Shown in pieces: positions 24,906-34,350 of a DNA stretch of 64,000 nucleotides (position 1 is its first letter; every line of letters begins with the position of its first letter). Origin of the DNA: Longibacter salinarum. Its GTDB lineage: Bacteria; Bacteroidota; Rhodothermia; Rhodothermales; Salinibacteraceae. The position numbers were made by a program, and so were the translations under genes. The notes below the pieces were generated by a model. That model saw only the letters and a list, made by a program, of their open reading frames with translations, had not been told where the DNA came from and did no database searches. The stretch covers positions 1 to 64,000 of the forward strand of contig NZ_PDEQ01000003.1 in NCBI RefSeq assembly GCF_002554795.1, read 5' to 3'.

Positions 24906-24947
24906 CTGAACCTTGAACTCTGAACCCTGAACCTTGAACTCTGAACT
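24906..24947 (+). repeat. Heptamer array, six YTGAACY units
   Basis: Six exact 7-base periods: CTGAACC, TTGAACT, CTGAACC, CTGAACC, TTGAACT, CTGAACT. The array starts four bases after the 32-bp palindrome and ends about 130 bp before the UPF0173 gene. Confidence 0.9.
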
Positions 24948-25076: not shown

Positions 25077-25757
25077 ATGGACCTGACGTACTTCGGGCAC
25101 GCGACTTTTCAGATCGAGACCGGCGACCATACGCTGCTGTTCGATCCTTTCTTTCAGGACAACCCGCATACGAATGTGGATCCGGCGACATTGGACCCGG
25201 ACTTTGTGCTGGTGTCCCATGCTCACTTCGACCACTACGCCGATGTCGAGGCGTTTACCGGAGAGGATGGACCGATGATGATCAGCAACTTCGAGATCAT
25301 CTCCCGGATTGGCAACGACTACGGACATGAAAACGTCCACCCGCTGAACGAGGGAGGAACGATCGATCTCGACTTCGGGAGCGTCGAAGCGACCCATGCA
25401 CGCCACACGTCGAGCTTCCCAGACGGATCGTACGGCGGTGTCCCGGAAGGCTTCGTCGTCGACTTCGGTGATCAAACGGTTTACTACACGGGCGACACGG
25501 CTCCATTCGTCGAAATGGAATGGATCGGTGAGGCGTACGATGTCGATGTGATGATCGCTCCGGTCGGAGACGTGGTGACGATGGGTGTCGATGGCGCGAT
25601 CCACGCTGCCGAGATGGTCGAGCCCGATCTCATTATTCCGGTTCATTACAACACCTTCCCGTTCATCGAGGTCGACCTGGACGACGTCCAGGATTCGTTC
25701 GAAGACGCAGGGTTCGACCTGCAAATTGTCGACTTCGACTCGAAGGTGTCGCTGTAA
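25077..25757 (+). CDS. UPF0173-family metal-dependent hydrolase (metallo-beta-lactamase fold)
   Basis: A 226-residue protein with the start MDLTYFGHATFQIETG and the metal motif VSHAHFDHYADVEAF, typical of the YtkL/UPF0173 group related to UlaG-type lactonases. Further metal positions are in ARHTSSFPDGSYGG, YYTGDTAPFVEM and VIPVHYNTFPF. Cytosolic; the true substrate of this family is not established. The start at 25077 is the first ATG in frame and gives the family N-terminus. A good terminator follows. Confidence 0.92.
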   Translation: MDLTYFGHATFQIETGDHTLLFDPFFQDNPHTNVDPATLDPDFVLVSHAHFDHYADVEAFTGEDGPMMISNFEIISRIGNDYGHENVHPLNEGGTIDLDFGSVEATHARHTSSFPDGSYGGVPEGFVVDFGDQTVYYTGDTAPFVEMEWIGEAYDVDVMIAPVGDVVTMGVDGAIHAAEMVEPDLIIPVHYNTFPFIEVDLDDVQDSFEDAGFDLQIVDFDSKVSL

Positions 25758-25784: not shown

Positions 25785-25820
25785 ACGGGAACCTGGCACT
25801 GCGCCGGGTTCCCGTTGTTT
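25785..25820 (+). terminator. Rho-independent terminator after the UPF0173 gene
   Basis: ACGGGAACCTGGC (25785-25797) pairs with GCCGGGTTCCCGT (25803-25815) with one mismatch and a 5-nt loop, followed by TGTTTGTT. It ends just before the left TSD of the foldback element. Confidence 0.85.
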
Positions 25821-25824
25821 GTTA

Positions 25825-26171
25825 TACCAAATCCAAATGACAGTGACGGGGCCACGATCGTCTGTGGAAGCGTTTCGCAGGCTTGGCAACCTGTTTGACG
25901 GATGGATCTCGAAACCTACGGGCAGTTCTTCATGCCTATGAGTAAATCTGACAGTCATCTTTTCGCGATGACGCAGCAGACACGGTGCGCGAGATCAATC
26001 AAACCCCGTACTGCGAACATAGCGAGGACCGACCAGCGAGAGGTCCGTACCATCGGATCGCCGGAGGCTGTCCGCCAAACAGGTTATGATTCCTGCGTCT
26101 CCTCCCTTTGTCGATCGAATCGACCCCACATCGTAGGCACGGCATCCGGACGCGATCATTTGAATTCAGTA
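25825..26171. mobile_element. MITE/foldback element, long copy (347 bp)
   Basis: The left end TACCAAATCCAAATGA and the reverse complement of the right end, TACTGAATTCAAATGA, match at 13 of 16 positions. The element is flanked by TTA on both sides (25822-25824 and 26172-26174), a 3-bp direct repeat. It shares its left 57 bp or so and its right 90 bp or so with the copy at 34004-34167 in reverse orientation. Inner arms are also inverted: AACCTGTTTGACGG (25888-25901) against CCGCCAAACAGGTT (26072-26085), 13 of 14 bases. No transposase frame is present, so it would be non-autonomous. The TNA duplication recalls the IS1031 subgroup of IS5, as an inference only. Confidence 0.8.
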
Positions 26172-26245
26172 TTAGCGGTGGAAATCAGGTGGCAACCTGA
26201 CCGGACACACAGCGAACTCTCAGTGCTTCGACGCAATCGACCTTC

Positions 26246-31049: not shown

Positions 31050-31084
31050 AAGCCTGCTGACAAATTGTAGTAGGACAGAAACCG

Positions 31085-31140
31085 CTGAACCCTGAACCCT
31101 GAACCCTGAACCCTGAACCCTGAACTCTGAACTCTGAACT
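31085..31140 (+). repeat. Eight perfect CTGAACY heptamers
   Basis: Five CTGAACC units followed by three CTGAACT units, 56 bp with no deviation. It lies in the divergent region between the CoA-binding gene (start 31049) and leuS (start 31328), so here the array is upstream of both genes. Confidence 0.97.
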
Positions 31141-33970: not shown

Positions 33971-34003
33971 ATAATCGCGACGCCTTCGCTCGCGCCAGTG
34001 TGA

Positions 34004-34167
34004 TACTGAATCCAAATGATCGTGTCCGAATGCCGTGCCTCAGATGTAGGGTCGATTCGATCGAAAAAAGGGGACGGGACGCAGGAATCAACGTTTTTTG
34101 GCACCTTCACGCCTGCGAAACGCTTCCACAGATGATCTTGACCCCACATTGTCATTTGGATTTGGTA
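34004..34167. mobile_element. MITE/foldback element, short copy (164 bp)
   Basis: The ends are TACTGAATCCAAATGA and, on the other strand, TACCAAATCCAAATGA, flanked by TGA on both sides (34001-34003 and 34168-34170). It is inverted relative to the copy at 25825-26171. Between CGCAGG and CCTGCG only about 26 bp remain, where the long copy has about 210 bp, so this looks like an internal deletion derivative. It lies 33 bp after the leuS stop. No coding capacity. Confidence 0.8.
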
Positions 34168-34200
34168 TGAGGTGTGTCTTCCGGCTGGCGAGAAGACAAG

Positions 34201-34239
34201 AAAAGCCGGAGCCGACCCTGGGTCGTGCTCCGGCTTTTT
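34201..34239. terminator. Bidirectional rho-independent terminator
   Basis: AAAAGCCGGAGC pairs with GCTCCGGCTTTTT around a 15-nt loop. T-runs occur on both strands, so it can serve leuS (plus, read-through across the foldback element) and the minus-strand ORF at 34351. Confidence 0.9.
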
Positions 34240-34350
34240 CCGTAGGGGCCGGCGACTGGGGGATGAGAGCGGCACCGTATCCGAAGGGGGGAATCGGAGA
34301 GCCCGCGTCTCGCAGTCGCCGGAAATCGAGGTCAAGATTGGAATCAGTCG

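Follow-up and report, generated by a model that had tools for sequence, protein, structure and literature searches.

Two insertions in the window

The window (the whole stretch of 64,000 nucleotides, C3:1-64000 of a 4.4-Mb draft genome in 22 contigs) carries two related elements, both of them intergenic and adjoining terminators. The first lies downstream of a gene for a metallo-beta-lactamase fold protein, which stops at 25757 and is followed by an intrinsic terminator at 25785-25815 (plus strand). Directly after the T-run of this terminator comes a 347-bp sequence (25825-26171, plus strand), with the outer terminal inverted repeats (TIRs) TACCAAATCCAAATGA at 25825-25840 (plus strand) and TACTGAATTCAAATGA at 26156-26171 (minus strand), both found by pattern match. 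It is framed by a TTA duplication read directly in the sequence (25822-25824 on the left and 26172-26174 on the right). The second element is an uninterrupted 164-bp copy of subfamily A at 34004-34167 (minus strand), flanked by TGA on the left (34001-34003) and on the right (34168-34170), and located between the stop codon of leuS (33970) and, at about 34207-34240, a hairpin that resembles a terminator. A search of the window with the TIR pattern TACYRAATCCAAATGA at up to three mismatches gave five matches versus 0.78 expected, four of which are the ends of these two copies (0, 1, 0 and 0 mismatches). The initial annotation had placed a long copy with a TTA duplication at 25822-26174 and a second copy, in reverse orientation and with a TGA duplication, at 34001-34170, and both the coordinates and the duplications were right. 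No gene-like reading frame was seen in the element, and the two copies are possible candidates for an effect on neighbouring transcripts.

A dispersed family with TNA target duplications

Searches of the own assembly covered everything except six short contigs, C17-C22 (5.2 kb), which were read as N. The 16-bp end TACYRAATCCAAATGA has 25 exact matches in the genome, and a reversed-pattern control gave none. About 24 copies of the outer family were found, which comprise a subfamily A of about 164 bp, a subfamily B of 166 bp and truncated pieces. With the short window copy as query, seven uninterrupted copies (itself included) were recovered together with eight interrupted or partial long ones. 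Subfamily B has four full copies, 93-100% alike, and is related to A through its termini, of which one shares about 40 bp and the opposite one about 30 bp. The family also includes two internally deleted forms of 49 bp and several fragments. Flanking triplets were tabulated for 20 identically oriented copies with both ends, 19 from this genome and one from the congener G003. Perfect 3-bp duplications occur in 11 of the 20, all of them TNA (TAA/TTA in six, TGA in four and TCA in one), whereas those of the remaining nine are off by a single base.

The outer element thus has a length of 164-166 bp, 16-bp TIRs and no transposase, and occurs as many dispersed copies with target duplications, for some of which empty sites are found. 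The 347-bp sequence is a real non-autonomous transposable element, a MITE. The initial claim of a MITE with a 3-bp TNA duplication that had undergone true transposition is borne out by the many copies, the 11 perfect TNA duplications, the paralogous empty sites and the absence of the element in the congener.

Empty sites and relatives

An unoccupied target is seen most clearly in a third repeat of the same genome, which occurs in an empty form of the GAGACGTTATCGTCGAAC type and in a filled form, GAGACGTTA[TACCAAATCC...GGATTCAGTA]TTATCTTCGAAC. Comparison of the two reveals the TTA duplication and fixes precisely where the element begins and ends. In G003, the interval between the same two genes that border the long copy keeps the terminator and its T-run and lacks the element, with a right flank too diverged to define a duplication. 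Moreover, the site of the short copy is without the element in both G003 and G001. True insertion is confirmed by the paralogous empty sites, together with the lack of the element at the corresponding position of the congener's genome.

As for its distribution, the exact 16-bp end is absent from the 26 other genomes of the family. The 164-bp unit as query revealed two clear copies in G003, one of them complete and with a TGA duplication (C205:1131-1295), and this genome also has fragments that represent a third subfamily (C83, C263). Beyond these, the order yielded two matches of 22-28 bases, in G034 and G055. Among the 114 genomes of the order examined, the MITE families were found in a single genus.

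A second MITE inside the long copy

The stretch 25887-26086 of the long copy (plus strand), recognised by repeat matches, is a MITE of about 200 bp with the ends AACCTGTTTGACGGA and TCCGCCAAACAGGTT. It belongs to a separate and more abundant repeat family, here called MITE-II, which occupies about 40 places among the matches listed. Its ends read [C/G/T]AACCTGTTTGGCGGA, and about two thirds of the two-ended copies have TNA duplications of their own, nearly all TCA or TGA. The point of entry into subfamily A is the TGA of GGCKTGAAGGTG. Four A copies (C5:199193, C1:783602, C2:33798 and C1:771500) contain MITE-II in one orientation; the window copy and C4:329863 contain it in the opposite orientation and have lost the outer sequence between two TGA motifs. 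The inner flanks in the window copy are TGG (25884-25886) and TGA (26087-26089), with outer sequence lost between them, so that a clean inner insertion is not visible in this copy itself. The long copy is an A element with an unrelated MITE-II inside, rather than just a longer version of the short one. The initial reading of a "long copy" had recognised a real element and missed that two different MITE families make it up. A further rearranged composite was observed at C1:688660-689075 (L043), where an outer end is followed by what appear to be two incomplete copies of MITE-II that point in opposite directions.

Candidate transposases for the two layers

A TNA duplication of 3 bp marks out the IS1031 group within the IS5 family, and ISLrh, a member of this group, has the ends GAACCTGTCTAGTATCT and TNA targets (PMC12016507). 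Both layers of the composite resemble this group in their duplications. For the inner layer the likeness goes further, as the GAACCTGTCTAG ends of ISLrh (PMC12016507) resemble the inner ends AACCTGTTTGGCGGA, and a matching IS5-family transposase fragment is present in the genome. At three contig ends (the start of C4 and the ends of C7 and C9) both ends of an IS are visible, GAAGCTGTTTGGCGGAT, bordered by TCA or TGA, and the C-terminus of its transposase, GGYRRLIRDYERLPEMSEAMVRVAMIRLMIRRVT, is encoded at C4:9-107 and C9:183741-183839. Elsewhere in the order, full-length homologues of this protein are IS5-family transposases (NF033580; DUF4096 + DDE_Tnp_1), one of them within GAGGCTGTTTAG ends with TTA and another within GAAACCGTTGAGG ends with TGA. 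Since the ends of MITE-II match those of an IS5-family IS, and both these ends and the TNA duplication are like those published for ISLrh, MITE-II is best read as an IS1031-group MITE, a placement within IS5 made from ends and duplication rather than from a tree, and with its own IS seen only in part.

The outer layer has the TNA duplication of the IS1031 group, but its ends TACYRAATCCAAATGA bear no recognisable likeness to the IS1031-type ends found here (GAAGCTGTTTGGCGGA, GAGGCTGTTTAG, GAAACCGTTGAGG). The full-length IS with these ends that the initial annotation had proposed to look for did not turn up: no IS-size element carrying them was found in the own assembly (C17-C22 excluded) at up to two mismatches, nor in G003 at three mismatches, nor an autonomous IS in the family scan or in viral contigs. 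In a wider collection of genome contigs, the combined TNA and TIR pattern gave 57 matches in unrelated, mostly AT-rich genomes, none with a partner end and matching duplication; viral contigs gave 0 and 15 matches with no convincing element, and plasmids gave no match. The transposase of the outer layer is accordingly putative, and the parent element may lie in contigs C17-C22, may have been lost or may belong to another family. The transposase beside a TIR at C1:20952 was weighed as the possible parent IS and rejected: that TIR is part of a truncated copy of subfamily B, and TTTGAAAA-type sequences, which flank the transposase genes at distances of about 0.8 and 1.7 kb, look like their own ends.

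In this line, the outer MITE could have been mobilised, like the inner one, by an IS1031-group IS5 transposase whose parent element was lost, lies in C17-C22 or resides in another strain. The exact TNA duplications of the 11 copies carry the hallmark of that group (PMC12016507) and the genome does contain IS5-family elements, points set against the dissimilar ends and the failure to find any IS carrying them, and we regard the chances as about even. This possibility concerns the enzyme only and would be a refinement of the composite reading given below. The initial attribution to IS1031/IS5 finds good support for the inner unit in its ends, its duplication and the matching IS5-family IS at contig ends; for the outer unit, the TNA duplication is its sole basis. 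Duplications of 3 bp are also known from the eukaryotic PIF/Harbinger (PHIS) elements and Tourist-like MITEs, where they are TWA (PMC4482050); unlike those, the host here is a bacterium and the duplications include TGA and TCA.

Probable transposition of the composite as a unit

The window long copy and C4:329863 agree in inner orientation and in their junctions, and differ in their outer flanks. Moreover, the composite at C5:199193 has a TAA/TAA duplication of its own and lies apart from the third repeat, in which its sister composites are found. This common inner structure at different flanks, together with the duplication at C5, indicates that the interrupted A element was transposed, and movement as one unit is the best reading of these sequences. 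A local insertion of MITE-II into a resident A element, with no ready-made composite involved, would agree with the entry of MITE-II into A copies at TGA sites; it is improbable nevertheless, because C4:329863 shows the identical inner orientation and sequence loss at other flanks, and two identical independent events are unlikely. Even less credible is a repeat with a regulatory or structural function (an RNA element, a terminator or a REP-like sequence) spread by selection without any transposon, for although both window copies are intergenic beside terminators and the short one is predicted to fold end to end (-54.7 kcal/mol, z -2.8, with the ends paired over the terminal 17 bp), the element has exact TNA duplications, empty sites and no Rfam match, and the 347-bp composite folds little better than shuffled sequences (z -1.5).

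Altogether, the locus is very probably occupied by a two-layer composite MITE that was transposed as a unit, with a putative enzyme for the outer layer. The first layer is subfamily A, a transposase-less foldback element of about 164 bp with the ends TACYRAATCCAAATGA, whose movement is recorded in the sequences and which would have been moved in trans by a TNA-duplicating transposase. The second is MITE-II, of about 200 bp, a non-autonomous MITE that is unrelated to A and best read as derived from an IS1031-group IS5 element; it presumably inserted at a TGA in the middle of an A copy. The interrupted A would have kept working ends and transposed as a 347-bp unit, one copy of which would have landed in a TTA directly behind the upstream gene's terminator (25785-25815). 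An uninterrupted A that inserted independently at a TGA accounts for the short copy at 34004-34167.

The composite is an ordinary kind of element with an instructive nested structure. Like the prokaryotic MITEs reviewed in PMC10969869, it falls in the range of 50-500 bp, has terminal inverted repeats and a target duplication, is non-coding and multi-copy, and would be moved in trans; it differs in that three families are nested here and the composite itself appears to have been remobilised. The word "nested" is absent from the text of that review (PMC10969869), and a search of the literature brought up no relevant work on nested MITEs in bacteria. The genome documents an interrupted MITE that can still transpose and nested MITEs that ride at one set position of a third repeat; layering of this kind can yield chimeric "long copies" that mislead annotation.

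The third repeat and the heptamer arrays

Five copies of the third repeat are occupied at a single fixed point, one by a plain A element, three by A with MITE-II and one by a truncated element. Three of the five have a common flank change, with TCA on one side, and such shared changes suggest that the elements at this point spread as passengers of the repeat. It is conceivable, although we hold it as a tentative proposal, that the outer family was moved by an undescribed TNA-targeting transposase with non-IS1031 ends (TACYRAATCCAAATGA) and, at the same time, that this layering of MITEs (II in A in III) allows several transposase systems to spread each other's passenger elements.

Three-layer nesting was observed at several places (L019, L238, L241, L032, L053), with MITE-II in MITE A and some of these within a third repeat ending in TGTCCGGTAGCTAG. 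An IS with TGTCCGGTAGCTAG ends has a DDE_Tnp_1 transposase at the starts of C10 and C12; this IS and the third repeat share the end, and both abut heptamer-array sequence. Ends of this type are located at the contig ends of C2, C4, C5, C9, C10, C11, C12 and C16 (e.g., L115, L117, L118, L126, L130, L135), and 12 of 13 distinct ones run clearly into arrays of the GGGTTCA type, which suggests that the element either inserts specifically into such arrays or makes them itself. The window itself contains intergenic (GAACCCT)n tandem heptamer arrays of telomere-like look at 24908-24942 and 31087-31135, and the stretch 31076-31139 has more than 30 matching places in the congener G003.
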